Source of the DNA: Anthopleura xanthogrammica
Lineage: Eukaryota; Cnidaria; Anthozoa; Actiniaria; Actiniidae
Length of the DNA stretch: 64,000 nt
Assembly: GCA_964019055.1 (NCBI GenBank)
Contig: OZ025208.1
Span: 13,894,097 to 13,958,096 of the forward strand
Direction: 5' to 3'
In this document: piece by piece, positions 1 through 64,000 of the stretch
How the letters are laid out: every line of letters begins with the position of its first letter
Position numbering within the stretch: position 1 is the first letter of the stretch
Translations under genes and position numbers: made by a program
The notes under the pieces: model-generated
What the model saw: the letters and a program-made list of their open reading frames with translations, nothing else
The model's database searches: none
Told to the model about the DNA's origin: nothing

Positions 1-235
1 CCCCGCCCATTTTTTATTGGTTGGTGGATTAGACTGCAACCTAAACAAGTATGATTATGGGAAACAAAGTATTTTTTAATGGTGGCGCGCAAACTAACTA
101 GACCGGACTCACGATTTTGGCCAAAATTTGGACATTTTAAGGAATTCGTCTAATGCTTTGTCATTACGCTAAGTAAAGCACTGTTTAGAGAAAAGCACTA
201 TTCTCTTTACATACACTTCGCATTATGAACTTGTT

Positions 236-530: not shown

Positions 531-562
531 GTTATGTCATCCCACTATTATGTTGTACTTAC

Positions 563-26105: not shown

Positions 26106-26149
26106 GCTCTAAATCCCATAAAGCACTCGCGTTTATTCCTTAACCCTTA

Positions 26150-26710: not shown

Positions 26711-27890
26711 CTTACATATCTGGCTAAAGTTTCATGCAATATGAAACTAAGAATTCACTACGTAGAAACAAGCTTACTTATGGTTATTGCCAAATTAATG
26801 AGAATTTTTTTAAATTCTAAAGTCTTACAAATAAATATTTGAATTTCCGAATTCATAAGGACGCTCGATATACGAAGTAAGAGGAATCTCAAGCTTTGTT
26901 CAAACTTAAGTATAGCGTATATAGTTCATCCTAAATAATTGTCGTGATGCGAAACCTTATTTCAAATATTGCCCTTAGTTAGTTTGTGACTTTTCTGAAG
27001 CCCTTAACGAGTATTATTATTTATTCAAAATATTTCCTCGTTTCTGATTGGCCCACAGTCCCCGGTTAATTTTTCATAACAAGCATTGACTGACCAAATC
27101 TGGAAATAAACGTCATTCGTCCAATTTTTTTTTATTATTGGACGATTGACGTCATTCGTCCAATAACTAAAAGATTATTGGACGATTGACGTCATCAAAG
27201 CCACCAAACAAAGATGGCTTCCCAAAAGGGAAAAGCAAAAAGATGAAGATTGGCATATGTTCTGTTCTCTGATAAAACACGACTAAGGCTGTTGAACACT
27301 CAAAAAGACGCAAAAATTTATGTCCCCCCCCCCCCCCCCCAAAAAATCTTTATATGCGGATGCTTAAAATAGCCCAGCCGGCTATTCACATGGCGCGTGC
27401 GGTATTAAGAAGTTTCCCTCTGTTTTGTATGCTCTCTTGTTTGATTATATTTTAAAGATATTTTTTATCTTTATTACATTTTAAAAATGTTTATTTCGTT
27501 TAAAAAAGCCGTTTTGTTCAAGCAATTTTTACTATTTTTTTATGATTTATAATTTAGCATTGCACGGACAAAACAAAAGAAAATACGTTATAAACACAGG
27601 AAACAGAAGATAACGGACTCAAGTTCTTTTATCACGTGACACTTCACAGTTTAGTTTCCCAAGTCCCGGTTCCATCCCAGACCTCCTCCATCATGATACG
27701 CACGGCTGCCGCGGTCAAAGTGTTCGACTCTTTTTGGCATTTTGTAGAAATTTCTTTAATCTTTTTGAAAACAAGAAAATATATAATCAGTTTAATGTAT
27801 TTTAAATTTTAATGGTATTCGATATTTTTAGTTGTTATCTTAGTTTATATTTAGGCCTTTTTTAGTTTATATTTAGGGCCGGACTTCGCT
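26711..27890. other. Downstream flank of gene 2
   Basis: Contains a cluster of ATTGGACGATTGACGTCAT repeats and complements (27115-27195), a poly-C tract (27326-27341) and probably the gene 2 3' UTR. No other gene seen. Confidence 0.4.
27470..27475 (-). promoter_or_regulatory. Possible poly(A) signal of gene 2
   Basis: The minus strand reads AATAAA about 415 nt after the candidate stop at 27891. This is AT-rich DNA, so chance occurrence is likely. Confidence 0.25.
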
Positions 27891-28031: not shown

Positions 28032-31000
28032 CTCCGAAAGAACGCAGTATAATTTAAACGTTGGTTTTGCAAAGGAAAACTACTGACACAGACTAAGTAT
28101 AATATACTAGCAATATTTGATCGAGTAAGCGCGTCCAGACAATAGGTTGGATTTAGCATAGAATATATATTACTCCCATTGCCTCACTAGGGGACATTAT
28201 TTTTCATGTGCGCAACAAAAGGCTGATGCGTATAGATGTCAACCAATCGAATGCGATGGCGTGCGCATCGAAAGAAACGTGTTGGCACTGTCACCTAGAT
28301 GTAGCTAGCAGCAGTTTTACTAGGTGCGTCCATTTTTGACATAGTTAATATATATACATTATAAATTACATTTTACCTGATTATCTGGATCACCATCAAA
28401 GGAATGAGCCCATAGCTGCTCCAAAATTGACCCGTATTGTCTGATATCAGTATTTGGGCTATCGTATTTTCTGTCGCTTGTTTTCTTGGGTACATTAACA
28501 AATGTTGCCTGACCAAATCCTCCCAAAACTGCCTGGATTGAAGGAACCTAGAAAATAACATGCTCTTTCTTGGATTGAAAAATGATTACTCAGAAGCATG
28601 CACAAGATTTCAAACGTGAGCCCATTACTAGAAGCGTTCATCAATTTCTTTCTAGATTTTTAGGACGGGTTTTAAAATAGAACCACTATATTTTGCAGCA
28701 GTGCGGAGCGATCCCACGCAAACTTGACGGGAAACAACCTCCAAAATAACCAGGTGTATTTAATGACAAGTGCAAAATATTTATCTCTTGACAGTTTCTT
28801 ACCATGGCGGACTCTTTAATCAATATATTTTTAGTTGTCACGTGGTTATGCCTCACGTCACACTGCTCAAGGTACGAGAGTGCATTTATGACGTCTGTTG
28901 CAATGGCCGATAGCACATGAGTAATGCTTTCACCGAGATATTCATCGAGAGTGGTGCAGGATACCAAGTCGTAGCAAATCAAACTGTAATGTTTTAACAA
29001 AGAGACGCGTGTCACACCAATTGATTTTGCCCATTTCCCTAACCCAACCCATTGCCTAATAAACCATCACCGCCAACATCATCATCATCATCATCATCAT
29101 CAACCTTAAAGCTTATAGAGGAAGCCAATGGATTCTCCAACCTTAATTTCTCGTTCGTCAGACTAAGTAGGAAAGACCCATGCAGTGACAGATCACGTGA
29201 TCACTATGCCAGATCAGTTGGATCTCGCGTATGCGCTTTGAGTTTGTAAATGTTGGTAGTGCGGTTGCAGGTAATGATTGACTGAAAGACGTAAATTTGT
29301 ACAAAAATACTAGAATAGAATAGCAATAAGGCAAAAATACAAAGAGATATAACTGAAAAGGCATCATAATTAAAAGTTTTACAAACTCACAAGCCATGCC
29401 CCTGGAGGGACTCGAGTTTTGTGACGTCGATCAGGACTTGAGCTTCTTGAACTTAAAATAATTGTACATTTATAAAAATAGAAGAAGGAAAAAAAACATC
29501 ATCTGGTGAACTACTCGCAAGCTTGCTTCAAGTACCAGGTGATCTGACTAGGCGTGCAAAGCATGATTTCCTGATCTGAAAAAGAATCAATCCCATCATC
29601 CACCGTACGCTCAATTCACTTGAGTTTCATGGCGGCCATCTTGAAAATAGACTAATTATGAGCGACTTTCTCGCCAATAAGTCTTTTCTTATTGAAAACG
29701 AGACACCATAAATAAAAGATAAAAGGATTTTCTTAAGGTTCAAAGCATCCTGCCAAGGACAAAAGAGCAGCGTAAGGTGTGGAAATTTTAGTTAAATCCT
29801 GCCAAGGAATCGAGAAAGCTTTTCGGCAGCTTCTTCGAGATCGTTTCAACGGTAATTCTTTAATAAAAAACCATGAATATTAACCTAACCGATGAAAATA
29901 TATTCTTAGTCTCATCTAGAAAACATATTCTTTGAAGCAGAAACATTTTTAGCCTTAAATAATCGGCTACATGACACTTTTCCTAGCATTATTGTACTTG
30001 TATGCTATTTGGTTTTGTTTTGATTTCCTCTGTTTATCCATGATTGAGCTCGAAAAGACGTATGGATTGATTCTTTTTCGGATATCACGATTCGCAATCT
30101 GATTGGCTAATCGCTTTTCCTCAGATCACCTGGTACAAATGATATTCCTGCAGCTGACTAATCTCGATTTCTAAGCCTGATACGAAAGGCCGCTTTAGCC
30201 AATCGACAGCACCTATTTTTATTTTGAACATAGTTAATAGAGGGGACCATGTTTTGAATCATTGGTTGGCGTAAAGACCTATCTTACCTTGTGAATACCA
30301 AAGAGGTTTCATAATATTTGGATGTCCACCATACTTTCTTAGTCTGTCTATGACGCATATTTCACGATTCCATTCAGCTTTCTCACTATTACAGAAATGT
30401 TTGAATAAGAACATCGATTCTTCGTTTTCTTCTTTGAAACTTCGATAAAAGTTCTACAAACGAAATAACCAATATTTCAATAATCTTAGGAAGCTGCAGT
30501 TTGACCAACTAAGTGCATACATATTCTGGTCTAGCTTGGATACAAATAATTAAAAATAACCATGAAGATTAAAATAGTTATACACCGAAGCTAGACCAGA
30601 ATGCATAATGATGTCGTTTTGGGGAAAATTCAAATTTGAATACTTACAACTGACTGCGAGAATTCTCCTTCAAAAAAGTTTGCCTTGACAAGGTTTATTT
30701 TGGGCTTTCTAGCTGATCCTTTATGTGTGTCTGGATTGGGTGGTTGCAAAACACCTGCCACAGTTGTGGCAATGGAAGAATCGGCGATAGTTGCTGATGG
30801 ATTGTTAGTCATCGGGATATGGCTAGCTAAACCTGCTAGACCTGAATCAATCAGAAAGCAAGAATACAAATTTTATCACTTGAACATTGCTTTTAATTTT
30901 AAACAAAAAAAAGTTGTTTTTTTTTGATAAAAGAAGCTACAAAATCTCTCCTCAAATTAAAGACCATAAATTGAATTTTTGTGGGTTTTTGTTTGCTTGT

Positions 31001-34000
31001 TTGTTTTGCTATTTTCCGGTTTGTTGGTTGTTTGGATTTTTGTCAGTCTTTTGCTCGGTTGGTTGGTTGGATGGTTTTAAAAGTAGCTGATTGTTTTCTT
31101 GTTTGCTTGTTTTGCTGTTTGGGGTTAATTTGATGGTTGGCTGTTTGGTGGATGGATGACAGTCCAATACCTACTTACATTGCGATACGGCATGTGTAAC
31201 ACGGGTCTTGACCAAATATATACGAGATTCCTTGTTGCCACTAGAAGCGTGATTCGAAAACGTGTATAGAATAGGATTAATCGATGAATTCACGGGTAAA
31301 ACAAACACTGCAATCCACACATAAGCAAGTTTTTCTGGGTCTGGGAATTTCCCAAGCAGTGACAACACTCCGATGATAATAATTGGCATCCAGCAACAGA
31401 AGTCAGTCAAGATGATGAACGCCATTTTTCGTGCCATCGCCGACTCGGTTTTCATTTGAGTTGACCGAACAGAGCGGCCGGCGCTTCTGACTTTCCAGAA
31501 CATCATGATATATGCAACTAGTATGAAACTAAATGCAATGAAGTTCAAACCAATGAAGATAGCTACCGAGTATTCCCAGCCGGGAAATCGCTCGTGAGAG
31601 AGTAGCAGAGGAAGACATACGGCTGATCTTCCATAAAAGCCCACTTGCAAGTCGTGATCATAAAAGTAGTCACTGTACAACGTAGGGAATAATGCTGTCA
31701 TAAAACCAAAGATCCATATCAAAGAGACCACAAACACAGCATGTTTCATTTTCAGTTTTATGAATTTGAAGGCAAATACAATAGTTGTATATCTGTCTGC
31801 GGTTATCGTTGTTAGTATAAGGACGGAAACTTCACTGGAGATAACAGAAAGTGCTCCTGCAAGCTGACATACCGGACTGGATCTCCATTGAAAATCTTGC
31901 TTGAAGTATACGCCTCTCCACTCAAGATCCTTGATGGCTATCATGAGTAAATACACTCCCATCATAAGATCAGATACCGCAAGGTTTGTAAGTAAAAAGG
32001 AGTGGACTCGGTTTTTCTCCTTCACGATTAGTCTCCAGATAATAACACCGATGTTTCCCACAAAGGCAAGAATCCCAAGAATCCAGATGCAGACTTGGAG
32101 CGTTTTGTTTTTCATCAGATCGTCACAGCTCGAGAAGGCCGACAAAGGTGATTCGCACTTTAAACCTTTTATGGAGTTGAGAGCGTAGCAACAAAACATG
32201 AAGCTATCTAGTTTGCTGTTGATAGACATAATATGTATAAAACAAATTTAGTGAAGAGAACGTTTTCATCTATAACACATCACTTGGTGTTGCCATATAT
32301 TACATCATGTTATATACAAAGACCACACGTACACTTGCTAATGGAAAACATCAGCCAACGTAACTACCAGCCAGAAGTATTTAAACAACAAAAACTAAAT
32401 TTAAAAGTATTTGAAATTTTCGTTGCCAGTTAGCATTATATATAGAATCATAAGCAAAACTAATTTTTCCTCAAAGTGTGAACATGTAGGTCAGCATAAT
32501 GACTTATCTTAAAAATTAAAATTAAAACGTTCTTAGCAATTTTTTAGCAATCATATGAATGCACCCTTTCCAGGATACATTTTGGTCAATGTTTACCCCT
32601 AAATATTTAATGAACTCAGTTGCCGAATATCTAATTCCTCCTCACCTTTACGTCTAGCTCCAGCTCCAGCACCACCTCCACCTCCAGCTCCACCTCCACC
32701 TCCACCTCCACCTCCACCTCCACCTCCACCTCCACCTCCACCTCCACCTCCAGCACAAGCTCCACAGCCACAGCCACCTCCAGCACCAGCTCCAGCACCA
32801 CCTCCACCTCCACCTCCACCTCCACCTCCACCTCCAGCACCACCTCCAACTCCACCTCCACCTCCACCTCCAGCACAAGCTCCACAGCCACAGCCACCTC
32901 CAGCTCCAGCTCCACCTCCACCTCCACCTCCACATCCACATCCACCTCCACAGCCACCTCTACATCCACCTCCATCTCCAGCTCCAGATCCACAAACACA
33001 TTTACAACATTCAAGTATAAGATTGGCTTACAGTAGTCGTAGGTTCTGTAGGTGACTGAACGTCTTCTCATCTATACTGCGTATGTTGTTTTTATCGAGA
33101 TATCTAAAAAATATTATATTTAATCCGGTGGAAATTAAGCTTGTGCTCATATTATTTCGAGTTCCCAAAAGGGATCCCATACCTCAATGATAAGGTTGTT
33201 GACCATGAGAATATATGTACACTTATTTTATATATTAATTTCAGCTACAGGAAGAGGGACGGATGGGAATAGTTTTCCATATTTTCGAATACTTACAATT
33301 CTTCAAGAAATTTCAAATTCCTGAAAGTATTTTTTGACACTTTCTTCAACCTGTTGTTATTCAAATACCTAAAACACAAATTATCAGACTTATAACCCAA
33401 CGATGAATTTTCGCGCGCTGTCATTGGTTCAAATGGGTCACGTGTAGGACGGGTATCAGGCGATATCCCCCGTCCGAAGTGATATTCGTCCAGCAGAAGG
33501 TAAAAACGTTAAAAAATTAAAGAAAAAACACGGAAAACAACGAAACTCGGTTTTTACAAACAAGTGAGAGTAAAATACAAAGACTGGTTGAGAAAACTAC
33601 GCCAGGAAACACGAAAAAATCAACAAAATATGCTGTAAATGTTTTCAATGGTAAGCATCCATGTTTCGTGAATGAAGTTTTTGGTTTCTTTTCGAAAATT
33701 GTTTTTATAAACTACTAAAAACCAACAAAGAATTCGACAACTAATGTCAAACAATAGAATAATTCAATGTCAAACAGCTTTCATTTACCAAAATATTTGT
33801 TTTTATATCCAGCTTGGAGACGAGAGAGAATTATTTTTTGAAAACTCTGGAGATGACGAGTCGATGCAGTTTACTGAATTCATTTCAGTGAAGTCGTTGG
33901 GTTATAAAATAAATAAACCCCCTCTGGCTCACTGGAATATCGGCTGATAATGTCCTTGGATGAGAAATGGTCCTCAAATTATCACATTTGCCCTCGAAGC

Positions 34001-37000
34001 TTCGCTTCTCGGCCAAATGTTCTTTTTTCGGACCATTTCTCATCCTCGGACATTATCAGCCGATATCCCAGCCGCCAGGAGGGGTTTATTTACTAAATAA
34101 AATAACGTATATTATCATCTGAGGCCAAAATTCCTATGTTAAAATGGAGGTTATGATGTCACATAGACTCAAAGATTAGACTCCAACGCAATGACTCCTA
34201 GCCTTAAGAAATATGATACAGCAATAGTACTTACAGAACTTTGAGATTTTTTAAGCTGTCGAAAACTCCATCAGGTAAGGCTTCAATTACGTTGTTTTGC
34301 AGATATCTAAAACAGATTTAGAAAGGCCATCGCTTTTGAGAACTGAAATTTGACGGTTTTTTTTTTGTTTGTTAAAAAGGCAATATTTTTATTGTAAACA
34401 ATCGTAACAAAAACTTACAGGTGTGTTAGATTCTCGAGCAATTGAAATGCTTCTTTTTCGATATGATGGATTTGATTGGATAGGAGGCTCCTGTTAACAA
34501 CAAATGTAAAGTTTATTCGAGTTATACATGGTTTAATTCGTTTATCTGATGTTAATTATTGTTTCTCTTCTCTTTCTCTTGCCAGCGCAGTAATTTCAGA
34601 GCATATGGGCAAAATATGCAACACTTTTATTAATAGCGACCATTGCAAAGCCTAATGTTACAATTCTATATAATAGGAGAATGGTACCTGTGTTAATTAA
34701 GAAAGTGCAGCTCGTTTAGCTAAATCAAATTGATTGCATACTTACAAGACTTGTAGATTATGGAGGTCATCCAAAGACTTGTCCTTTACAGTGCTTAAAA
34801 GATTATTACCTAAATCACTTTAGAGAAAGAACATTTTTGATTGCAGTTAGTAATGAAATGCCGCCCTAAAGACCAGGCTGTCTAGCGGGTGACATAACGG
34901 GCCTAATTTGAACTGAACTACTGAAAGGGACGCAATCATTGGCTTTGTTCCCCTGACCAAAGTTGCAACCAAGAAGACCCTATATCGATATAGATGTCTG
35001 TGCTCAAGTACGTTTGAAAATTTTTCTTGTTCAAACAGGGTCTTTGTGACTTCTTCGCTGACTTTTTGGATTTCTCAAAAAACAAAAACAGTTAACAAAC
35101 AACTAATAGACAAAAAAATCTTCACAATTTGGTTGGGTTGCTAGAGTTACGCAGAGTAATTTTAATCTCAAATAACGAAAAAAGCTTACAGTTTCTCTAG
35201 CCTTGACAATCCTGTAAATACGTTTGGTTGAAGCTTCTTGATGAAATTGAAATCCAATCGTCTAAAAGAAAAAAGAAAAATACCAAAACAAACATGACAA
35301 AAGAAAAAAAGGAGGAAAGGAAAAAAAGGAAAGGAAAATAAAAGAAAGGGAACAACTCTTGGCTTGAAAGGCTTGAAAATTAGTCTTATATAATACTTAC
35401 AATGTGGTCATATTTTTGAGCCCAGTAAAGGAATAAGGAGTAACACTCAATATACGGTTATGACTGAGATCCCTGTGAAAGAAGTGTGAGCGACAGATTC
35501 CTATCAATTTGGGCTAAAACAAACTAAAAATGAACGTCAATATCAATGGTGGCCTTTTTCAACATTCAGAGAAAATAAAAGTTCTTCGCAAGTTGTTTTG
35601 CTTTTCCACGCCACCTATTTAACCAGTCGATCAAATTCTTGTCTATTCTCCCCGACTCAACTCACTCATGATAACTTTTTTACCCATTCTCTCGCCCCCT
35701 TACTCCCTTCCTACCACTACCATCTAACCTCAACGATGAAACATTTACGTACTCATTGCTTCTTAACTCTCTCTTACCCAGTCCCTCACTCGTCATACCT
35801 TCCTCTTCGCATTCAATGAACCTAAATCCGTCCACTCCGATTGAATTAAGAATGAATTCTTAGCAGCAAATTAAATTAATGATAAGTCACATCAAGATCC
35901 ACTTACATGTATTGAAGATCGGATGAAATGCTGTATGCTATCCGTGACAGGCGGTTCCATGAGATCATCCTTTGAATTGGAAATTAGAAATATATAAGAT
36001 GGAAATTTTAGGTTTGTACGGTCTACCAACGATGAATTGTGTTTGAAAGCGCTTTTTCCCTTAAATCCTTTCTATGCAATATGGTTGCTCTCGTGATCAG
36101 AGAATTCATTTTCGAAAAAAAACTGCTAATTACTTAAAGAATAAGCAGCTTTCTACACTGAGTAAGAAGATATCGTTTTCCCCTTCAAAACTTTTGGAAT
36201 GCAATTTAATACCAACACTGTATTCAAGGTGTTGTTAATGAATAACTTAATCAAAATCCTAGAAAAATACAATAGCACGAGTCAGCGGATTTGGCGTAAT
36301 AGACCAGACCAAATCAAGACCACTGATTATTCACTATTGAAACCTGAATTTGTTTAGAATTTTTATTCTCAAAAATTAGGTTTGAAAGGGACAAATAGCA
36401 TCGGCGACTATTCTTGAGGTACATGTGATGTCACAGCCGTCATATGTTGGTTGATCTTTGTTAAAGTATTTGGCTTTGTATATATTTTTTTATTTCAACC
36501 AACCTGACAGCCGACCACGCCTTTTTTATTTAATTCTCTGGGAAAGAGATGCATACCACCGATAGCTGTGATTCAACTAAAGGCGCGGTTTACACGACTG
36601 ATATTTTGATCGTGGCATTTTTTGGGGCGATTTGAACGACGTCTGATAAATGCTACAAGTTTTCAAGCACGATATGTATCCGGAGTTAACGTGAAGTTTC
36701 AGCAGAAATCGTCGCTCATGTCGCCACAAAAGGCCATAAAATGTTGCCTGTGGAAATAGGCCTTAAGGTCTCATTCGAATGTAACGTTCTTACATGGCAA
36801 TTGTCTTGGCTGGAATTTGCTTAGGAACTGCTGTCAGTCCCTTGCAGTGGATTTTAACTGGTGGAGGGTTTCCAATCAGAGGTGAGCAGGTACAACCGGA
36901 GGGACAGTCTAAGCAATAAATAAAAGATCATTAAGATATACAGATATTTCAAAAAAAAAGACTGAAGGGGAGATGAAAATGCATATTGATATTGGGGCAA

Positions 37001-40000
37001 TATAAGTCAATAAATATTATTATTATTAAATAAATATTAATAAATATTATTATTAACGGCTAATTGCCTTCGGTGATTGACGATTGTACGACCGAAAGGA
37101 ATTGTGGCACAATAAGAATTTCGTGATATTCATATACAAACAATGCCTGAACCATTCAGTGAAGATTTTAGATGATGAGTACTGAGTGTGAATTGTTCAT
37201 CTTGTGAATTTCCAATTGAAGATAACTCATTTAACCTGGTTATTTTATCTTACCAATCGCCTATCACCAATTGCCAATCGTCGTGTGCCCCTTCAACCTT
37301 CTTTTAAAATAATAGCTATCAAATGCCAGAATAGACCTTTTTAGTTTGGGTGTAACGTCTTCCCATTTCAAATAATGAGTTATTTGTTTGAGAATAACAT
37401 TCTTTGTTTGAGTTGTATCCAAATTCATGTATCTTCTCATGTTAAGCAAGAACATTATACTGTAAAAAATGACACGTGTTCTGGTATGGGAAAAAAATTA
37501 AGACCAAGCTAAAAAGGTATATGATTATATAATTTAATCACAAGAATAAAACGCAAATCCGAAGTAATGCGTTATTTTCTACTTACTTTCAATAAAGTTG
37601 CATTCTTCTTTTTCCTTTTCTGCGAATAATTGCAAACATAAAATATAAAGTAGGTAGTTAAAACTACAAACTTTGTATACTATCAATTTGAAATAATACT
37701 GTAAATTTTGTACTTCATCAGGGCCACAAGTTTATAAGTGTTTCACTTTTAAGTGTTACCCTCGCGAAATAGAGACTTCACATCACATCACATCTTACTA
37801 CTGTTGTTGTTGACGTCGTTGCTACTGCTACTACTACTGTTTCTACTATTGTTGTTGTTGTTGCTACTGTGTTGCGGCAGTCTTTGTTGTTGCGCATGCG
37901 TTGCTGCTGTTTATGTGGTTGCTGTTGCTGCTGGCGGTTGATGTTGTTACTGTTGTTGATGATGTTGTTGTTGCTGCTGTTGATTTTTTTTTTTTTTTTG
38001 GCATCATAGTTAGCAATAAGTATTAAAGCAGTATATGACTGGAAGGAATGTCAAGTGCATGGTTAGGTACTGTACGACGTGTATAATATCTTACAATCGC
38101 AAATTGCAAAAAGTGTATAGAATAATAACATGTGGCTACTTACTGTAAGAAGTGTAGGAGATCTTAAAGCCAGACAAAAAACTGTGTTCATTGTCGGACT
38201 TAAAGGCTATAAGAAGAGAATTAGAAGTTGATTCCAGTAGAAGAGGAAAAGAATCTCCACAATATTTTCCCAGGACTTTTGAGTTGGAGGAGGGACCGTC
38301 GTACACAACAACGTAATCATCTTCACAGCTTTGGCTATCTTGTACTTCAAAGAACACAAACTTCAAACGAATAACGTATCCAGTTGGCCGGGTTATCCAC
38401 CACGTACAATAGATGTCACTTGGATATGGATCAGGGAAGTAAGGGGATGAGAATGTTACTGATTGGATTGTCAAATTTACATGGCAACCTACAGAAAACA
38501 GAAAACGAAATGATAATTAATCAAGAAATAGAAAAAGCGCGCTCTTGCTACGTGCTCTCATCAAGCATGTGCTCCCAATCAAAAACCGAGATTTATAACA
38601 GTGATTTTTATTACGTATTTTAGTCACAAATGAAACTTTACGAAGATTCATGTAAGTGTGTTCAAAAAGATACTGTATACGAATTACCTCTTTTCTCCTC
38701 TGTACTAAAAGATGAACAATATCCAGGTTTTACAAAATATCCCGCCAGTCCTATAGACCCCTGACCAGGATTTAACGTGGCACTGACTCGGATCTGAAAT
38801 ATAAAAAGAAACATGCCATGGCATGAAGTCGTTCAATATACAAGTCTAAAAGGATTTGAAAATAAATTGTATCGATACCCTGAAACAACCCCTGGGTTGA
38901 TCAAAGTCAGGGCATGGCTAACTAACAGATTGAAATTGAATTTAGCATGTTAGCTTTCGTGGAGGAGAAAAACCAACCTCGAATAAAGAAAGAGACCTAA
39001 CAAGGTTCACTCACATGTAATGCAGAATTTGGGAACCGAACAGGAGACCCCAGAAGCGAGAGGTGTAGGTACCACCGCTGAGCCACCCTTTATTTCCGGG
39101 GAATCCCGAATTACCGGAAATCGATACAATAAGGTTAAGGATTAGCTTTCTTTACCTTAAAGTTTTGTAAAACACTCAACGACACAGCTCCATATCTCCA
39201 AAAAGGTTTGCGTTCTTTGAATGATGCAACCCATACAAGTTCTTCCTTAGTAGTATTAGCATCAAGATCATTTAGATCAGATCGATAGATCTTGAGGGAT
39301 GCACCTGATTGGCCAATCAGCATGTACCGGAAGTAGAAACATAAACTAAAGGAGTAATCAACCAAGGAGCTGTTGAAAACGTTGCTTATTAAGTCGCTTG
39401 TAATTAGATTGGTTGAGTTTTGTACAATATTATATCCTTTACCTAAGATCAAGTAAATAAATAAGTACAAGATTATCTGAGTGTGTTTTAACAAAAAACA
39501 AAAAGCCAATAACAACAACAACAACAACAACAACAAAACAAGAAAGAAAAAAATATAGAAAAAATGCTCCTACAAATAATTACCACCAACATCAAGACAA
39601 GAAGGCGGGTAATTCAGTTGGTCTCCATTGTTGAATCTTGACCAATCCACGATATCACCCCTTTCTATACCACAACCCACTGCGCGTTGAGCTATGTCCG
39701 ACCGACCCATGGCTACAGTCCATACGTTCATTCCACTAATTTTTCCCACGAAGCCATCTGCTCCAACGCGAAAACGACCACCACCTGTATGCAGAATTGG
39801 ACAAATTTTAAAATCTGCTTCAACTCCATATCAGCCTTTTGGGGGCATGAGTCGGGAAAGAAACGGATCCCATTTAGCAAGTGCGAGCATAACCTACCAG
39901 GTATCTTTAGGTTTTTATGCCATTCGTTGAAATGTCTCACGAACATTCCATCTTTGTACAACTGAAAGACTCCTCCCTTGGAGGTCCACACGAGACAAAG

Positions 40001-43000
40001 ATGGTGCCATCTGCCATCGTTGGCTGATTCACGACTTCTACTTGAAATATGAGTAAATAAGTTGGAAGATTACTTTAAGACTAGTAATGACTTGATTCAG
40101 CCTTACGATAGCCGCAATATAAAACAAAACAATAATTTGGCATGTGACCTTTCATACTCATACGAGGCATATATGATCGACTCTGCATGTTCTTGTAATA
40201 AATTATATTCAGGTGCCTTTCACCTTTCCCTACAAGGCTTGTTATAATGTATTTGCAAAGTTGATTAAAGGTAACAAGATAAAAAGTTGTTGTTGCTGAT
40301 AATGTACCATTGTAAATATAACAGGGCGCAGATAAACGAGATTGAACTAAAAAGCATTTCAAGGTAGGTGCCTTTAGTGCTGCTATTCACTTCAGCTCTA
40401 AACAGTTGGAGGTCATGATCAGGTACCGTGAGCTTTAGGTTGGGGGAGGGGGGGGGGGGGGGGTTTGGGGGAAGTGATGAAAACCTGAAATTTGGGATAA
40501 CTCTGGGAGTGAGGAATATATCCAATCAAATTAGCTCACGTTTTGCCACCAGAAACCAAAGCACCTCCTTAGAGGTGGGAGGCGAGCGTTTTATCATTAC
40601 AAAAGCCAAATGGGCCCATCAATATGAACTTACTGTTCTTTGTCCATCAGCTTTATTAATATTTTCTTGTAATTGATCAACCCGAATCCAGTGAATTTAT
40701 TGCCATAGTATCTGAAGGGAGTTCCTTTATTTACTGTATCGTTCGTCTTCATCCAAACACAGGCTGTGAATGACTCAAGGTCTGGTATGTTGAAAATGTC
40801 CAAACCTTTAGTCGCTCCTTTAAAGGACATTTCGAAAAGTCCGGTTTGAATATCTATAAAACACAGAATATTTTTTTTAAATGTTACATTATAAATGGAC
40901 AATTTAATCGGGACTTATACCATCTTTGAAAAACAATTAAAAGGATTTTGTTTTTGAGATTGCACCAATTTGCAACACCCTTAAAATCCCATACCCTTCC
41001 CACAATCAACCCATTGAGAAATCATTAGTAGAGGTCAGACACTAAGAGCGGTCACTTCCAGTGTTTCTTCACGTCCTCAGTGGTTCTTTAATGTCTTTCC
41101 GATGCAGGGTAAGGTAGTGTGAAAATATGGGACCGCCATTTTACCGGTAGTCATCTGAGCGTTTATGACAATTAATTGTTTATAAAATTTGTGTATGATT
41201 TATCTAGTAAATTTCCGGCGCATTATCCGACAGCCATTTCTCATGGACTTTGAAAATATACTAATGTTACAAAGAAACAAAGAAACAAAGAAACAAAGAA
41301 ACAAAGAAACAAAGAAACAAAGAAACAAAGAAAACTTACCATATCCCTTACAGACGCCCAACTTTTTGTCTTTATCATAGTTTTCGGATAAAGAACACCA
41401 GTATTTATCAAAACCAGATATTGTACTTTGAAAATATACTAATGTAACAAATAACAAGACTTACACATATTAGAGCCGGTAACGTTATCCTGCTTAGTGA
41501 GGACATCATTAGAAGGCAACCGTGGAGACCATGGGACGTTGGGAAAATTAAGAATAGGGGTCCATTGTAGAGTTGTTTTCTCTTTCCTATAACTAGATCT
41601 GCAGTAAGCAGGATATTCTAGGAATTGAAAAAAAGATTAAAATTTTTATTCTTATGGTCACGTCAGGGCATGCACGGCTAACTCACAGATTGAACCCTGA
41701 AACAAACTCTGGGCTGATCAAAGTCAGGGCATGGCTAACTCACAGACTGAACCCTGAAGCACCAAACCTCTGGACGGCTAACTTTTGAATTGGAACTTAG
41801 TGTCTTGGGTTTTGTGGAGGGAGGAAAACAAAGAAACAAAGAAACAAAGAAACAAAGAAACAAAGAAACAAAGAAACAAAGAAACAAAGAAACAAAGAAA
41901 CAAAGAAACAAAGAAACAAAGAAACAAAGAAACAAAGAAACAAAGAAACAAAGAAACAAAGAAACAAAGAAACAAAGAAACAAAGAAACAAAGAAACAAA
42001 GAAACAAAGAAACAAAGAAAACTTACCATATCCCTTACAGACGCCCAACTTTTTGTCCTTATCATAGTTTTCGGATAAAGAACACCAGTATTTATCAAAA
42101 CCAGATATTGTACAACTGTAATACTTTCGTGATTCAAAGACAAAAGGAAAAACACAGCATCCCATTATTTTAGTTTTTTGCTGACATAAGCCACATTGTT
42201 CTATAAACACAAGCAGATTGAAAAATGTTAAGTAGTTGTAGTAGCAGCAGCAGGAGCAATAGTAGTAATAGAGTAGCAGGAGCAGCGCTAACAGTAGAGC
42301 TAGTAGTTGCAAAAACAGCAGTAGTATAGCAGTAGTAGCAGTAGTAGTATAGAAGTAGTAGCATCTGCATCAGTCCGGGCAACAGTAGTCAAAAACCATG
42401 AATTCACTCACCAAGGCTTCTAGTATTACAAAATCCCCATCCATTTGTATAGACATCTACATTACGCGTTGTCCCACACCAAGGCTTACTCTCCGTCGTC
42501 AAGCACTGACTGTAATTCAGTTTATTATATATGAAAGGAAAGACGCACATTTTCCCAGTGTGTGTCATAATTCTACATGTCCTGTTGGTAGGGGCAACGG
42601 GAGCTGCACATAATAAACAAAAGAATTGAAAAGGATAAAAAGTATGAGCTTTGATAAAAGTAGAGTTTTGCGTAGTTTTGAGTTTTGCGTCGAGGATATT
42701 TCTGTAAACCACTGATTGTGATGTTGGTATCCTCAATAAAGACGATTTATTATTTATTATTTATTATTTATAACCCACTCTGGGGAAAACGAAATTTTTA
42801 AAAGGCCCTGACAAACGGGCACAAAATTTGACCCATCATTTTGACAACAAATTTTGTCGGGATCAATGCTGTGACGAGCTGGGACGGTTTGTAATGGTCC
42901 GTTAACTATATTGGATCAAGAGTTTGGCTAAATGTTGGCTAAATATCTATCATCTGTGCCGGGACCGTTTGTCAACAAATTAAATGTTGGGTCAAATCTT

Positions 43001-46000
43001 GGGCCGTTTGTCAAGGCCATTATGGTACATGAAAAAAAAGGACAATGATCGATTCGCCTATTTAATATTTTCCGTAAATGGTTATACTTTGCTTTTGGGG
43101 GTAAACGGTTTAAAGACGGTCAGAAGTGTTAGTGCAGCCATAGTATTTTCTTTCTTTGCTTTTCAAGTTTAATCCTTTGTCCCTAGAGTATTTCAGTAGT
43201 TTCTGTGTCTATTCATTCTACCTTAGCTTAGTTTTTCCCTCGGGTTTACTTATGCAAATTCTGTTAGTTTTATCAAGTTTCCTTCGAGTTTATTTTCACT
43301 TTTATTGCGAAAGCGTTTCTGCGAACAAGTTAGTCAAGAAAGTTAGTTGAACTCTGCGTATTCTGCGTATTTGCGATATTGTCTTAGAGCGGGACAGTTG
43401 GTATTGCGATTTATATTTTTGTTGCTCTATTCACTCTGTAATTTATATTCTTTTTGTTAGTTTTACGTTTAAGAAGATTAAACGTTTGTGAATCAGATAT
43501 TCGTTATATTTGCTTTTGTCCATACAATACTGACTACTAGTTCTTTTTCCCAACTCAGAACTTCAGAGAAGCCTAAAACCGTGCATCACGAAAAAGTGCT
43601 TAAAATTCACTCTAAACTTCACTTTAACATTATTTATTTTTGTTTCTGGTCATTCTTATGTATATTTTAATATTATACTACAACATCTTCAGATCAATCT
43701 TCAGGATAATATGTTTTATTTCTCTGTTGGTTACTCCCCAAAACCGACATGTATTATGGGGAATGTGAAAATGGCAAATTGGCATAATCAAATACTTCTT
43801 TAGTTTTGTTATTTGATCCAGTCAAGAGCCTCTTTTACCCCTAGTGATTGATCCTATATATGTTCTCTCTAGATTGTTGAAATACGTTTTTAAATAGCTT
43901 TCTTACCTTCAAGAGCGGTGTTACCTATTGGATACAACAACACAAAATATTAAAAAATAGCAGCATAAACATCTCGATTATAACACAAACGCGATGTGGT
44001 ATAGATGGGATAATGGAAGGAAGGAAGAAGGGAGGGAGGGATGGATGGATGTAGAGAGGGAGGGAGGGAGGGAGGGAGGGAGGGAGGGAGGGAGGGAGGG
44101 AGGGATGGATGGATGGATGAATGGATGAATGGTTGGATGGATGGATTGAGTTATAACAATTGGTGAATAACTGAAATCTACATCAATGTGCTGTTTACCA
44201 GGAACTTACCACCGACACAGAACCCTTTCTTTCTATCACGATCGTAGTTATCAGTTAAACTGCACCATGGTTTGAAAACACCGACCCCGATACAATACGA
44301 GTAGCACTTGTCTTTGTAAACGAACGGAAATACACAACAATCTCCTGATGTTGTACGCTTCTTACAGTTTTCTGTGCAAAGAAGAAACCATCAAGTTAAA
44401 AAGTTAAATTAAAAGAGGAAGAATGAGGTATGATTTGATGATTTGAAAGTTGTGATAACACGAAAAGGAATCTTATGCATTAGCTATCAGCGTAAAATAA
44501 TAATTCGGGCATACAGTTGAAGAATAAAAGTTAAAACGAGAAGCCATTTACTCATGTTTTCTTATATACTGATATTTCGGTTGCATTTGACAACCATCAT
44601 TAGAGATATTTATTTGTTTTACTTATTTTATTGGGATACGAAAGTGGATTGGACTGCATCCTAAGCAAGTATTTTTACAATATTAATTTTGCAATCACCA
44701 GTGACGGCTGAGGGCGTGGCTCTACCCTTTAATTTGCCAAAAAGTGCGGTCGGTCTGTATGTCTATCCGTCCGGAAACCAACGGATTTTGAGGGGGCCAG
44801 GCCCCCGCTTCCGCCACCCCTGATCATGGATTAACGAAATATGAAATACTCGTAGCGCTCAAACTAATTAGACCACACTCACGAACTCATGATTTTGACC
44901 ACATTTTGGTCATATTTGGCATTACACTAACCACTTTTTAAAAACAAAGCACCAGTAAAGCTATTCTCTTTACATACACTCCACATTCTGACGTCCTTAT
45001 TATGTCATCTCCTTTGCCATGTGTACCTGTACACTATTATGTTGTACTTACCATTCATAGAAGTTGCATTCTGACAACTGTCTCTCGAAAGTACGATGTC
45101 ATCAACAACTACTACAAGCTTAACACCTGGGGCTTGTTTACTGGTCTCAAATGACAGCTGAGAAGAAAATATGTTATAATATAATAGGCAATGTGTCAAT
45201 TTAGATTCCTTTTTAGATTCAATTGTATTTTAGAGGCCAACCTCGTATTTTATGGCCAGTAGTCAAAGTTCCAAAAAAGGTTTTGCACTAATTAAGGCCA
45301 GATTCAAAGTTCGATCTTCACAAAAACTAAACCTATTGTCATCAAAGAAAACCGCCTTATCATCCATTATTTCCAATGCATTCGGCTCATGTGAAATTGG
45401 ACGTTTGAACTGGGCCTAATACCTCTATTAAGCGGCCAACCTCTATTTAGCGGCCAGTTGTCAAAGTCTCAAAGAGCGATTTTGCAGTAATAAAAAATCG
45501 GCCAATTAATTATCACCAGAGAGCGGCGGCTTGGTTATACTGGATTTTACTGCAAGTGATTTGTTCTCTTGTCTCCTTCTCCTTCCTCTTCCCACAAAAA
45601 ATCAGTATTAATTTCAATTTTACAATCTGTATTTGTGAACTTGTAAGAAAAAGGTTCGGAAGATAATGTTAAAGAGAAATTAAAGTTAACTCACCCAATA
45701 CTTGTTTTGAGTCTTAAGTGGTATTTGCATAAAAATCCAAGCTTTTGTGGGTTTGTTACGGTACCACAATAATGTGCGTTGGCGATCAGAGAAGTTGATG
45801 GAGTACAACAGTAATGAAGTTGAAGAGTTGATTAAGTACCAAAAACGCAGGCACTTAAAACCTTTTTGTGGATGTATCACAGGACTTTCCATCTTTGGAG
45901 TAACTTCAACGTATTCTGGATTCGTGAGAGCAAATCCGCCACCTTAGAGTGTTGAAGAAGAAAGGGAAAGTTACCTAAGTATATCTTTTTATTATATGAA

Positions 46001-49000
46001 ATAGAGTGTGATATTGAGTGACATCAAAATGATAAAATTGATATCCCCACTCCCACCAGTGGCCAGTGGGGATACGATTTATATCAACACTGGTGGTGTC
46101 AAATTTCGACTTTTTGCTCAGCAAGTCTCAAATTCTCCATTATTTTTCCTTGAAGATTTCATATAATAAACAGAACATTACATGGCCGCTTGGAGATACG
46201 AATTTATCTTCTCGTGCTGATATTATCTCTCACGAGTGAGCGCAGCGAACGAGTGAGAGATCATATCAACACTCGAAGATAAAATTCGTATCTCCGCCCG
46301 ACCATGTAATATCCTCTATTTATTACACATTAAGGGTCGATATCCGTGAAATAAATTAAAGCCGTGAATAAAAACCATATCGGCAGTGAAGTGATACGAT
46401 ATCACTTCACGGCAAACTGTCCAATAGAATCTCGCGATATATAATAATGTATAATCAACCCTAAATGTGTAATAAACAAATTATTACATGTTAAGAGCTG
46501 ATATCATTTTTATCCACGAGCTTCCCGTATCATATCGCTCACTCGAGCGATACCAGGCTCTTAACGTGATAATCTCTATATATAGCTTCATAATGTCTGC
46601 TCTTTACTCATTGCTTACAGCATCTACCACCATAATCATAATCAAGAGACACGGCTTTGTGCATCTCTTTGCCAATATGTGGGAGGAAAAACAATGGTAG
46701 GCAATCAGACACACATAATTGAGTCAGCGCATAATCCTTAATGCTTACATGCTGGTGTTTGAAAACGAGGCCAACAGTGAGTACTTTGCCCTATTTCCAT
46801 TAGTGCTTCGTTTACAACGCACTTACAAGCTAGAGGTACACAAGTACGGATTAAGGTTTTGGCGAGTAAAACAAACAGGTAAGACCAAGTGAAGTAAATT
46901 TTGCAAACGTTTTGCTTATAACTGCAAACTTGCAACCTAATTTGTTGATTCGAATTGAGAGTATATAGGATATATCAAGGCACATAACATTTTTCCTTAC
47001 TTTGCTTGTCTCTTGCTGTGACATTAGTTCCTTGCAAGTCTTCACTTTGCAAAACCCATCCGGCGTTGCTTTTCCAATCGCAAAAGTCATTACGCTCAAA
47101 GTTACAATTACCTATATGGAAAATAAAGAGTTGAGATAATGACATGCATAAACGGTTTAAGAGGCAGCAAGATAACAGAGAAGTATTATGACCAACAAAA
47201 TTATCACATAATCAACACCATTACGCAATGCTGGATCTGCATTTTTGACAAAACAAATTGCCTTACTTCATCATGATCATCATCATCATGATCATCATGA
47301 TCATGATCATCATCATCATGATCATCATCATCATGATCATCATCATGATCATCATCATGATCATCATGATCATCATTTTTTTTAATGTTTTTTTTCCGGG
47401 AAAATGTTTGAGAACTGGACTCATCGAGGTACAAAAAACTTCCCTATGTTACACAATGGTTTTGGATTCCATCAAACTTTACTTACTCGAGCCAAAAATA
47501 GATAAATCACAGTTTCCCGTAATGAGATCCACGTCATCTATTGCAATATCTCCCTCGCTACCATTACCAGTTGTTGCTATAAATACAAACTTAAAAATAC
47601 AAAACATAGAACGTAATCTAGTTGAAAATTTATGGTTACTAACCAGCAGTCATGCAAGGACCACGGAGCACGCTTAAACGTGTGGTTGGGTGGGTGTGGT
47701 TGGGGAAGAATTATTAGAAAAGACTGACTAGTATTTATAAAATAATTTAGATATAACACGCGCTCTGATTGGTCAAAACACCGTTTTAGATGAGAGTATT
47801 TAAAATGCTCACGTCATTCTCTTTCATCGGCGATTTTTTTTACCTTTGTTCACGAACATCGTTTACACAAAAAATGGAAGATCATGGCCATCTCGGGCCA
47901 CAGGAATGAGCAAAGCCTGAGCCATTATAATTTTCGTCCCTCTTCTATTCAACTGCAGCAGTGCAGTGATGTCCTTCGCAAAGAACCCTTGAAGGCAACG
48001 AAAGTGAACTACACCTGATGGCCAACCAGCAGAACGAATTGAGAGTTAATCTAACTTTTTCCATTTAGCTTGATTACCATTTTTGGACATAAAAGCAGTT
48101 TTTGTGCGGAAAATTCGACTTCAAAATCACAAAAATTTCGTTTGAACTCTTCGCACACGGCTATTCTTATAAGGTTCGTGAGTGGTCCGTTTTGAATCTT
48201 GACAATGTAGGGAGAATTTGTAATTACATCTCGAAAATAAAGCGATGTTTTTGGAGCACAGTCGTCATGTTTATTGAATTATTATTCTATAAAAGCAATA
48301 TAAGACAGTTTTGCGTGTTATATACTCTGATCTAAACACTTGGGATGTTGGGAGAACACAGAAGACTACTGAAACTTCAAAATTTAGAGGATATTAGGAA
48401 AACGTTGGGAGATATCAGTCCCTTCCTGCCATTGCTGTATACAGTCTTTTGAAAAAAACGTTGTCGCTTACCGGCTCCGCGACTACGCGACTTGACCGAA
48501 ATGGAGTATGGGTAGAAATCGCTAAAGCGCTTAATTATTCGCTCTGAAGTAGTTGTTTTTGGTTACTAATAAAATAGTATAAGCAGCAACTCATTTAGGC
48601 TTCGTAAAGCCAGCTTCTGATAATCTTAAGCATTAAACAATGCAGATCGTTCCCACCTTGAAACTGCTTCCATTGCTGTATATGGTCGTCTGCCCGAACC
48701 TCCATTTTGAACCAGAATCACCGATTCTACTCCACACCTTGTATCTCGTTTGGTTGGTCATGACGTATACGTTCAGCGCACCCACTTGACGTCCCCACAT
48801 GTGATACCAAAATTGGATGCAAGTGACATTCTCGTACTCCAGCCAATCACTGTAAAGTTGTGCTGCGTCACCTCGGTCAAGTCCTGAAACTTCGAGGTAA
48901 AGATAACTACCTGAAATTAAAAATAAAACAGACAATAAACTATTATTGGATGAGGTTGAGCATGATATTGAGTGTTTATCTTTGTTGTAGTAATCGTACG

Positions 49001-52000
49001 ACTCTCCACATGATGTCTGTAGGAATTCTACAGCAACAACCAATGAGGATGCAGCATTTTATGCTACGTCATTTATTTACAGAGAGTGCCATGAATGAAT
49101 GAAATTTGATATCTTGAACTCACTTTTACTCTTGAACACGATCGCGATTCATATTTTTGACCGGTATCATGCCAAAACATAAGTATAACTATAAAGGGCG
49201 CTGTGAAAATGTCTTGGCCTTCGAGCGAAGCGCTGGACGGGAAGAAGATATTTCAGAATTTCTTTCCGAAGATTTGGCTGCCGGACAATCGCTGGCAGCG
49301 AAAAATAGAGGGAAGGCTCTTGACGAGCGCACGATGCGCCTTTATGAAACGAGGCTGATGCATCTGGAGGAATTTGCATCCAGTCAAGGAGACAATGCCG
49401 TACTTTTTAGAGAAGGAAAACGTCCCTTCTTGGCTGTTACAATTATGACATTTCTACGTAAGTTTATCATAGATGTTTATAGATTGTTAAAAACTTTTAT
49501 AACTATTTCTTTGACCACACTACCATCAGTGACATATGAATGCCAATTGTTCTTTCAAAATGCTGAAAGCACCGTAAAATTAAGTTTAAAAGAAACTGTG
49601 GTCAACATAGATTCCATTCCTTGAAATAATTTGTGTTAGACCAAATAGTTTCTAGTGTGAAGTGAGCCCGACAAACATACGAGAAATCGTATCTATTTTG
49701 AAGGGTTAGAGATTTTAATCATAAGTTGGCCGGACGTGGTTTATTGTCACAGATTTCTCACAAGTTTGTGTAATTTTCTCTTTGATAATTACTCTCTATT
49801 ATTAAAAAACTTCGTTTTCATGATCGTGAATATTCAAATACAAGGTATCTAAGGTATTTCAAACTGATCTAAAGCGAAATTGGGCTTTGAGCGAGGGCGT
49901 GTCCATATTGTGAGTTGACGCGAAACATGGCTTTTTTGAACTCATTCCGTGGATTCTAGGGTGTGTCCATAGCGCTAACGCAAAATGTGGTCTTGAACAC
50001 ACATAGTATATAGCTAATATTAATTATCAGTTCATTCTGAGTTATTTTCCCACATTCAGAATATCAAGAAGTTAGCTTGTATTACAGAAAAATGCATTGA
50101 TTCATGTACTAGAGCTAAAAATTTACTTTATAGACTTCTTCAACATTTTTGTTTTTAATTTCTGGCTGTTTCTTATACATCTGTAAATATCACTGATAAA
50201 ATGCATTTGCAAGTCATCTTCTGGTCAGTCTTCAGCATTATATGTGCAGTTTTTACCCTGGTTACTTCCCAAACGCAATGAATTATGGGCAATATGAAAG
50301 TAGAGAATAGCAAACCATAGTTCATAGGATTAGAAGAATGATAAGAAGAAGACTTAGACTAAATAAGATCAAAAAGAAAGTAGTTTCGCCGCTATACCGA
50401 GAATGGTCTTCTAGCAGTAGCTAATTTGTTACTCAGTTAAGAGGTATGAAGATTTGTAAGCCATGTTGGTTGGTTTTCTCTTTAGGTTGTTTGTGGTCAT
50501 TCCTAAGGAAATCAAACAATTCGCTTACCATTGGCTGTTAGTGTGGTATGATCAATTGAAGGACCAGTTTCTGAGGTTGGGGTTGGACCTTTCTTTATTT
50601 GCCATTTTGCTTTACTTGATTGATTTGTCCCGTCTGTTGTCAATCCACAGAATCCATACTCAAAATTACAAGGTCCTATGAAAAAAACAACTATTAAAAA
50701 GGAAATCGTTCGATGTTAATATTACTTATTATAATTTCGAGTGTCAGCTGTAGCAACGAAAAAAGGAGAAAAGAAGGAGGCGTTGTGAGAATCCAAGAGT
50801 TGGAAAGGCTAGAGAGCGCGTATTCTCGATCCCCGGTTGCGTGACAAAAATGAAAAGGATTTTCATCTCAGTTACATTTGTTTTTACCTCGAAATGTTCG
50901 GCACTCCTTTGAAGTCTGAGGCTGGGCTGTGGTGGTTGCACAATTAACGATATTTAGAGGACATCTCAGGGAGGCTGAAAAAATAATATTGTAAAATGTG
51001 TCGCCTCTGTGTAATGACAGCAAATACTATACTATCCTTGAAAATGCGAATCTTTCGAGAATTTTTCCCACTCCACTCCACTCATTGCGTAAGACACATC
51101 AGCCATGTTAGTCAAAGCAAAATCCACGAGAAAACTAACCTTACAGCAGATCTGTTGCTCATCTGATCCATCTGGCCTGTCACACACCCCATATCGCACG
51201 TGACAGACCATATCACACAAGATCTATCCAAATAAGACAACACAAAGCTACAAGAATACTTACAGCAGATGTCTGGTTCATCTGATCCGTCATGACAGTC
51301 CCACACCCCATCACATGTGACTGAAAGAGACACACAAGATCCATCCAAACAAGAAAACTGGTTCTCTTTGCACGGGTTTCCTGTTACAAGAGAAAACAAC
51401 TTGCTCACTAACAAACGCCCTGCTTTTCGTTTAAGGATGACTTATATAAAGTAATCTGGAATTTTTAGAACTCAGAAAAGACAGAAAAGGCCTATATGAA
51501 ATAAGTGTACGATGCTTGGCCAGTAGCATCAGAGATCATTTCTACTAACCACAGCTTGCTTCATCTGAGCCATCTGCACATTCCTTTAATCCATTACATA
51601 AATGATTAATTGGTAGGCACTTTCCATCCGGGCATTCGTATTCCGATGATCGACATGCGCAGTTACTTTCATCTGATTTATCTACGCATGCGTAGTCACC
51701 ATCGCATCGTAAAGCAGATTTCACACATTCACCGTTGTGGCATTGGAACTCATCAGCTTCGCAGGTGTGCCCTGTCAATTAATTTTAAAGAAATTATTTT
51801 GTATAGAACCCTTTCACGTGACGTCAAAGCAGATCAATTTAGAGGGGGAAAAACAAAACAATTGCAATCTCCTGAGAATTGAAAACCTATTGTTTTGTCC
51901 TCTAAATTGAGCTCTTCTCCGAAGTGCTGCAAGGGGTCTATTGCGCAAATACCCGTGAGAGAGAAAACGTAAAAATCATAGTTTGATCCTTCTTCTTGAT

Positions 52001-62188: not shown

Positions 62189-64000
62189 CTACACAAGATC
62201 AATGATGAATACAATGGATAAGAAAAAATACAGCATTGAAAAGCCGTTAAGGTAATTCCGTAGTTTTGCATTGCGCACGCGCTACGGTGCACGATTTTAG
62301 CCAACGCGAGCTCGCGCACATTGGCTATTACTACGATTTCAAGATGGCGGCAGGCTAATGTAAACGGTTCGTTAAAAATGCACAAGATACAGAAAACATC
62401 CAAAATCAATCAGGAATACATCAAACGAAGATTATCAGGCATTGTTATCAAAGTTTTGTATGAATTTAGAAAGAGATCACAGCCTTTTTCGATTTTTTTG
62501 TGTGTGTAAAATCTCTCCCTAGTTCCCTCTCGGTCACTACATTTCGAGGACAAAATTCGTACTTTAGCGAGCTGTAGCGCGAAAACGAACACGGTGACCT
62601 ATCTTTTTTATTGCAGTGAATCAATAAGGAATAGGTTTACCTTTTGGGACCCCTGTGGTGCTTTACAATCTCATGTCAAACTAAATCCTAATTAAACAAT
62701 AAAAATACATTCAATCTAGTCGAGAAAAAAAATACCCTATGGGACCCCTGTGGTGCTTTACAATCTCATGTCAAACTAAATCCTAATTTTAATTCAGTAA
62801 ATATACAAATATGTTACTTTACTACTACTTCAATAGAATCACGCCTAAATATTATCCTAAATATTAACATAAAGTGGTTGTAAAATAACATATTTTTATA
62901 TCTATCCTCCAGTGAGAAAACGCAGTTGTGTCGACTATACGGCCAGCCAAAGCTTTCAGCAAAGAAAGTTCATGTTGCGAAGGAGGTCAACACGGGAAAG
63001 ACCTTTCAGCAGATTGCTATAGAAAATCGAATAGCTCGTGCGACGGCTGAGGTTTATACCATCGGCTGCCTTGCCTATGGACGATATGTTAATCACGACT
63101 ACATCGGGGAACTATTTCTATAATCCAACAAAACCAAGTAAAAATAAATAAAGATATAAATATATAATACTCGAGTCGAGCCGAGTCCACGTTTCCATGA
63201 TGCCACACGTCATGACTTAAACAGCTACAATTCGTAGAAACCAATGGCATTTCGCCTTTAATCTCTTCCCATACACACTGGCGCAAGTTATCCAACAATT
63301 TTACAGCAAAAGAAATGCTCAGAAAACAACAAATGGAGCCATTATTTGAAACTATATATATGAACTTAGAGTCAGGATCAGTTTTTTACCAATGGCGACT
63401 TACAAGTGTGGAGGCGTGAGAATGTTGCGAACAGATTCCGACGGTTCCCCACATACGATTGGACAGAATATTTCACAGACAATAGCTCCGATGTAGCCTG
63501 CGGAAATGATATGATCCTTCGGGATTTTTTCGGGTTTTTTTCGTGTAAATTTCGATGAATACGTTTTTCAGCCAATCAGAGAGCGTAAAATTAATTATTT
63601 AAGCCAATTATAGCCATCCTCACTGCACATGCGTTGCCGTTGAGTGCTATCGTTCTTAACAGGATCGTTACTTAAACAATAAAAATACATTCAATCTAGT
63701 CAAAAATAACACAACTGAAACTGAAAATATTCAAAAACATTAAAAATACGTATCCCTAAAAAAATGAAGAAAAAAAAGCTTTAAAAATGTTCACTGATCT
63801 TGACTTTTGAAATTTCAAAACGTAGCGGATACTGCAGCTTTCTAAAAACTTCGCTTTCCCAAGCATCTGATTACGCATTTGCAGACTTCTATATGTTTGC
63901 ATGACATACATAGATAAATAATAAATGAATAAAATTAATTTGTATAGAGCTTGAAAATTATAATAAATATTTAAAAGCTCTTTACAACTACATCAGTAAT
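62189..64000 (-). other. Gene 2 intron 1 (partial) with inserted and duplicated segments
   Basis: Contains TTAAGGTAATTCCGTAG... near 62247 (start of an unresolved insertion), two copies of GGGACCCCTGTGGTGCTTTA (near 62647 and 62740), and a segment 62720-63680 flanked by TAAACAATAAAAATACATTC on both sides. After 63680 it resumes homology with gene 1 intron 1 (16750-17075). The signal-peptide exon is expected beyond the edge. Confidence 0.6.
62926..63123 (+). pseudogene. RecQ/Werner-like helix-turn-helix exon fragment
   Basis: After a plausible acceptor (atcctccag, about 62914) the plus strand encodes CRLYGQPKLSAKKVHVAKEV, NTGKTFQQIAIENRIARATA then EVYTIGCLAYGRYVNHDYI and a stop. The pattern ...tGkt..qIA...ri...Tve.yi..a...G resembles the HTH domain near the C-terminus of RecQ/WRN helicases. 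It stands alone in an inserted segment of gene 2 intron 1, antisense to gene 2, so it is probably a captured fragment. Confidence 0.45.

Follow-up and report, generated by a model that had tools for sequence, protein, structure and literature searches.

The stretch of DNA analysed here, hereafter the window, comprises 64,000 nucleotides of the sea anemone Anthopleura xanthogrammica (contig OZ025208.1, positions 13,894,097 to 13,958,096), and its minus strand contains a locus that is predicted to encode, in one chain, a seven-transmembrane (7TM) receptor of the GRL101/relaxin-receptor type followed by a kinase-like tail. The 7TM exon (31179..32215) belongs to class A, matches the Pfam family 7tm_1 (E 6.2e-34) and carries the signature motifs DRY, CWxP and NPxxY, read as ADRY, CWMP and NPILY; an earlier note on this DNA had called them intact, correctly. 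A gtaagt donor closes the exon, and without splicing a stop follows two codons later. The spliced chain runs 32215-31179 + 30841-30648, 30453-30288, 29451-29391, 28983-28803, 28547-28377 and 27760-27644, with GT/AG at all junctions; the frame stays open over the six exons after the 7TM exon and ends in a single TGA at 27646-27644, giving a predicted product of 642 residues counted from the last leucine-rich repeat (LRR) codon. The open frame and splice sites support the earlier proposal that the 7TM exon splices in phase into the tail, and the same order, in frame, is found in relatives and paralogues.

The tail consists of a linker exon and five kinase exons, all on the minus strand. The linker exon E2 (30648..30841, phase 1 to phase 0) reaches the first kinase strand and is also found in the six tandem paralogues and at loci L027 and L029 of this genome. 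It is followed by E3 (30288..30453), with the beta-3 Lys, alpha-C Glu, HPN and a conserved beta-4 Trp; E4 (29391..29451, phase 1 to phase 2), likewise present in L021-L027; E5 (28803..28983), with the hinge, alpha-E, HNH for HRD and the catalytic-loop Asn; E6 (28377..28547), with GFG for DFG and the alpha-F D..YG; and E7 (27644..27760), with the end of the C-lobe, a C-terminal ETKL of the class I PDZ-ligand type and the stop. The kinase order given in the earlier note stands, but its count of a tail and four exons does not: it omitted the 61-base exon E4, which was revealed by comparison with Actinia tenebrosa P0126, and it ran the last exon to 27891, a model rejected because P0126 places that exon at 27760-27644. 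A join at 29038 was also rejected, as Actinia and the paralogues put the exon start at 28983. P0126, an automatic model of 188 residues, is identical to the window tail at 131/188 positions (70%) from beta-4 to the end, compared with only 63% for the exon model with the 29038 join. The rejected stretch between beta-4 and beta-5 is still present in the initial homology query, in alignment A2 and in the searches made from them; this applies to the listing of relatives, the kinase profile ranking, the Pfam count over ten tails and the search that gave tail fragments, while the Pfam scan of the window tail and the Actinia comparison were repeated with the corrected model.

The corrected window tail matches Pkinase (E 1.8e-5) and PK_Tyr_Ser-Thr (E 6.9e-5) in Pfam, both families are matched in 10/10 tails at E<=0.01, and Actinia P0126 lies above one curated cut-off (38.6 vs 23.1 bits). 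Structure prediction, proposed earlier as a check on the window protein and carried out on two of its relatives, P0001 (Oculina) and P0008 (Nematostella), returned a bilobal kinase fold. Because tyrosine kinases (TK) and tyrosine kinase-like kinases (TKL) rank within about one Z unit in the two structural models, no kinase group is assigned. A special link to the JH2 domain of JAK kinases was rejected: 7t6f (which we take to be JAK1) and TYK2 topped the profile table by summing two domains, and by single-domain score the best among those listed is ITK, at 32.1 bits against 24.9 and 23.0 for 7t6f and TYK2.

Both catalytic aspartates are lost in the window tail (Asp to His in HNH, Asp to Gly in GFG), just as first noted, and the tail thus falls among pseudokinases, taken as domains that have lost at least one of the beta-3 Lys, HRD Asp and DFG Asp. 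Across 21 aligned rows (fragments P0128 and P0129 were left out), the DFG Asp is missing in all 21 and the HRD Asp in 19; the two rows that keep the latter (Desmophyllum P0096, Stylophora P0109) read NFD for DFG. At the 14 loci of this genome described below, the HRD Asp is replaced by His at nine (window, L021-L028), by Asn at L030, Glu at L031 and Phe at L032, and is kept at L033 and L034. In place of the DFG Asp, twelve loci have Gly and L031 has Asn; L032 retains the Asp. The combination of HNH with GFG, whose conservation the earlier note had left to be checked, recurs in Actinia and at 9/14 loci of this genome but not in the coral rows, which have HNN or HND with GGF, AGF, GSF or NFD. 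L033 and L034 retain HGD and read GGFD for DFG; L032 retains the DFG Asp and reads HNF for HRD. As read from the assembly, the two aspartates are lost in different combinations among these three loci. An unusual chemistry could still make the tail catalytically active, or activity could persist in some paralogues, since one aspartate survives in P0096, P0109, L033/L034 (HRD) and L032 (DFG); however, the two occur together in 0/21 rows and 0/14 loci, and we consider catalysis very unlikely.

The beta-3 Lys is kept in 16/18 rows that have a residue at this position and the alpha-C Glu in 18/19, and the catalytic-loop Asn is present in the window, Actinia and the Oculina group. These residues would suit a nucleotide sensor, in which ATP is bound without catalysing transfer and receptor output tracks pocket occupancy; the earlier note had inferred either this or a scaffold role. 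However, inspection of the window tail by eye shows no clear GxGxxG loop, the DFG Asp is lost throughout, the Acropora and Nematostella rows have lost the catalytic-loop Asn, and in Paramuricea P0064 the Lys, the Glu and both Asp are gone. The losses in Acropora, Nematostella and P0064 indicate that the pocket is not a family-wide constraint. We therefore regard nucleotide sensing as unlikely and prefer docking, because P0064, with all four residues lost, retains the alpha-F Gly, the beta-4 Trp and the C-terminal motif.

The window copy belongs to a head-to-tail array of seven copies on one contig, 46-58 kb apart, and lies at the high-coordinate end of the matches. At seven further loci a 7TM exon and exons of the tail share one strand, making 14 loci altogether, found with the tail as query and excluding the broken L029. 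The seven-exon set of the window recurs in its six tandem relatives and L027, and five of the seven exons in L028; in these tandem relatives GT/AG sites stand at matching positions, except that L021 and L022 have their E2 acceptor shifted by a few bases, and for L027 no position could be assigned to the 7TM donor. At L029 (G000:C19:7360500-7370000) the 7TM frame is broken and only E2 and E7 were detected, with no E3-E6; its predicted end is DTRM, and it looks like a decayed copy. Between the window and L023-L026, synonymous divergence (dS) is 0.13-0.15 in the 7TM exon and 0.02-0.03 in the kinase exons, a contrast that suggests gene conversion or exon exchange within the array.

Relatives are found in other anthozoans. 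Among 120 listed of 363 relatives, 13 of the 15 models from NCBI records carry the tail, and the tailed models among the matches listed come from Oculina, Porites, Acropora, Orbicella, Nematostella, Paramuricea, Desmophyllum and Stylophora. A further search gave five more tailed models, including Desmophyllum P0121 and Pocillopora P0124, and another added tail fragments; database entries for some of these models already bear a kinase-domain annotation. A tree of 26 tail rows unites the window copy with L021, L023 and Actinia (96/88) and with L027 (100/98); L033 joins Nematostella (97/95), a join that the program flags as a possible long-branch artefact, as it does that of Paramuricea with P0096/P0109; several forks are open, and L022, L024, L025, L026, L034, P0004, P0021 and P0125 were left out as near-duplicates. 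Since Paramuricea is an octocoral, the fusion of 7TM and tail is probably older than the split between hexacorals and octocorals. A C-terminal T-x-L or T-x-V, presumably a candidate PDZ ligand, ends 16/18 tails with a natural end (exceptions P0001 and P0002; P0004, P0125 and P0127 were excluded as incomplete), and T-x-L ends the tail at all loci of this genome in which the 7TM exon is unbroken and the last exon could be located (11/11); L032-L034 fall outside this count, as the end of their last exon was not found.

The ratio of nonsynonymous to synonymous divergence (dN/dS; Nei-Gojobori, codon bootstrap ranges) in the kinase exons is 0.37 (0.24-0.57) for window-L021, 0.41 (0.27-0.67) for window-L022, 0.27 (0.18-0.40) for window-L027, 0.20 (0.12-0.30) for L021-L027, and, with dS near saturation in the L028 pairs, 0.23 (0.12-0.39) for window-L028 and 0.18 (0.10-0.31) for L027-L028. 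On these estimates the kinase exons of the older copies are under purifying selection. Compared with the kinase exons, constraint in older pairs is stronger on the 7TM exon and weaker on the linker exon E2 (0.46-0.57).

Taken together, we favour with moderate confidence a receptor of the GRL101/relaxin-receptor type whose kinase-like tail, likely cytosolic as judged from 7TM topology and lacking both catalytic aspartates, serves as a non-catalytic docking module. The underlying architecture, the GPCR (G-protein-coupled receptor) with a C-terminal pseudokinase of the earlier note, is favoured by the sequence, the relatives and the predicted folds of relatives. Several observations weigh against this reading. 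The window tail falls under the curated Pfam cut-offs (Pkinase 24.7 of 31.7 bits, PK_Tyr_Ser-Thr 22.7 of 23.1 bits), and of six relatives four pass that of PF07714 (not Nematostella or Paramuricea) and none that of PF00069. The two relatives that supply the fold evidence share 32% and 22% tail identity with the window, and at a whole-model pTM (predicted template modelling score) of 0.43-0.44 any placement of the tail relative to the 7TM bundle is tentative. For the near copies, dN/dS is not distinguishable from 1 (window-L023 0.60, 0.19-3.15; window-L026 0.80, 0.24 upward; L021-L022 0.64). Stylophora P0036 ends after the 7TM without a tail, and P0014 (363 residues) is, by its length, too short to hold one. 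Conversely, Desmophyllum P0121 and Pocillopora P0124 keep the tail but lack the 7TM largely or wholly, for which gaps in the annotation are the probable cause.

The inconclusive ratios of the near copies, together with the broken L029 and the faster divergence of the tail than of the 7TM part (dN 0.239 vs 0.141, window-L027), could also mean that an old fusion has left the tail as a decaying remnant with no present function. Yet the aligned exons of nine copies contain no stops, the upper bounds of dN/dS lie at 0.30-0.67 in the six older pairs, the splice sites and the C-terminal motif are conserved, and the tail occurs in hexacoral and octocoral gene models; we give this explanation little credence. 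Alternatively, the 7TM exon and the tail could be separate products, either a 7TM exon with its own stop beside another gene or two isoforms of which only the short one matters. The read-through stop two codons past the donor, shared with L023-L026, the annotation of the Actinia tail as a model of its own and the tailless P0036 would fit such an arrangement. The read-through end is not conserved across the wider family, however, where it lies 2 to over 60 codons past the donor, the Actinia model begins in the middle of the N-lobe, the 7TM and tail are joined in 13 of the 15 NCBI models, and the exon phases fit, so that separate products seem highly improbable.

The docking receptor would bear a large ectodomain, encoded upstream on the same strand. 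The LRR exons (33032..35471), seven repeat pieces found by tblastn with coral relatives, end in an exon predicted from donor and acceptor sites to join in phase to the 7TM exon; Pfam LRR_8 is found in the relative Oculina P0122. Further upstream is a CUB domain exon (38136..38516, Pfam CUB E 1.4e-29), and the domain order in P0122 is CUB, then LRR, then 7TM. At 39135..40069, exons with weak MAM and pentraxin/laminin-G-like matches, which do not reach the Pfam cut-offs, resemble Desmophyllum P0121. Candidate ectodomain exons continue with three fibronectin type II modules identified with Pfam (41797..44390) and MAM, LDLa and F5/8-type-C-like exons (45686..62198); the LDLa at 51.1-51.8 kb shares the strand of the 7TM exon and may supply the multiple LDLa repeats expected of a type C relative of GRL101. 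The fibronectin type II, MAM, LDLa and discoidin-like exons up to about 62 kb are probably the ectodomain of the same gene. A MAM/LDLa-rich module occurs twice on the minus strand, at 1-17500 and 45000-62200 of the window, and the one at 1-17.5 kb is upstream of the neighbouring tandem copy L026. By eye, each module has one long array of short-unit tandem repeats (7600-8010 and 54990-55340), and minus-strand open frames at 25479-26139 resemble the end of a reverse-transcriptase-type retroelement protein.

In the docking mechanism that we propose, a ligand bound by the large LRR/CUB ectodomain would shift the 7TM bundle, whose coupling to G proteins would persist, judging from the 7TM motifs, and this movement would expose or reorient the tethered pseudokinase. 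The pseudokinase could then bind a hypothetical partner kinase or substrate through a kinase-kinase-type interface and hold it at the receptor, with the conserved C-terminal T-x-L/V motif anchoring the complex to a PDZ scaffold. A broader proposal, which we put forward tentatively and think doubtful as yet, is that anthozoans possess an ancient, expanding GPCR class that signals via a built-in pseudokinase, in which a ligand would move the 7TM part and thereby switch, by allostery, a partner kinase bound to the tail. If true, such a receptor joins the GPCR and kinase worlds in one animal chain, in a lineage predicted from sequence to have a hormone-receptor-type GPCR bearing a kinase-fold module unable to use the normal chemistry. 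Nematostella, which can be worked with in the laboratory, carries a member (P0008), so the role of a kinase fold on a GPCR after the loss of catalysis becomes testable.

The closest known receptors by the 7TM part are GRL101 of Lymnaea and the other type C leucine-rich repeat-containing GPCRs (LGRs; relaxin receptors RXFP1/2), with which the window gene has in common a class A 7TM and a predicted LRR ectodomain. The window gene differs in the pseudokinase after the 7TM: no kinase domain or kinase-like tail is described in the portions of the LGR literature covered (PMC4079206, PMC8286064, PMC7357564, PMC9545775), the main text of the last, a review of Nematostella LGRs, contains no word starting with kinase, and the passages of PMC6267866, PMC8662651 and PMC9897584 covered by term look-ups hold nothing on such a tail. 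Among the matches listed from the open-licence PMC literature, no title or opening of an abstract points to a kinase or pseudokinase tail on an anthozoan GPCR.

The JAK JH2 domain is similar in its kinase fold with degenerate HRD/DFG, and the Nematostella tail reads HGN, like the first-domain rows of 7t6f and TYK2; HER3 is another protein with a pseudokinase domain. JAKs differ in that JH2 is followed by JH1 in one chain, whereas the window chain has one kinase-like domain, ending in E7, on a 7TM receptor. The order of a 7TM and then a kinase domain at the C-terminus, frequently found in gene families, is shared with the GPCR-TKL/Ks of acanthoecid choanoflagellates, the GPCR-TKLs of oomycetes and amoebozoans, and the GPCR-TKs of choanoflagellates and sponges (in the sections covered of PMC12716839, PMC5784254 and PMC6033456). 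According to parts of PMC12716839, the GPCR-TKL/Ks of acanthoecids follow earlier reports of fusions in oomycetes and amoebozoans, GPCR-TKs occur in choanoflagellates and, among metazoan lineages, in sponges only, and its authors know of none with a functional characterisation. Parts of PMC5784254 describe GPCRs with accessory catalytic domains as rare or even nonexistent in metazoans and report GPCR-TKLs from oomycetes and amoebozoans only, and models, one of them with an inactive catalytic domain, are discussed in PMC6033456 (in part). Judged by these descriptions, the family found here is set apart from all three groups by its LGR-type 7TM, its anthozoan hosts and the absence, from every member seen, of one or both catalytic aspartates.

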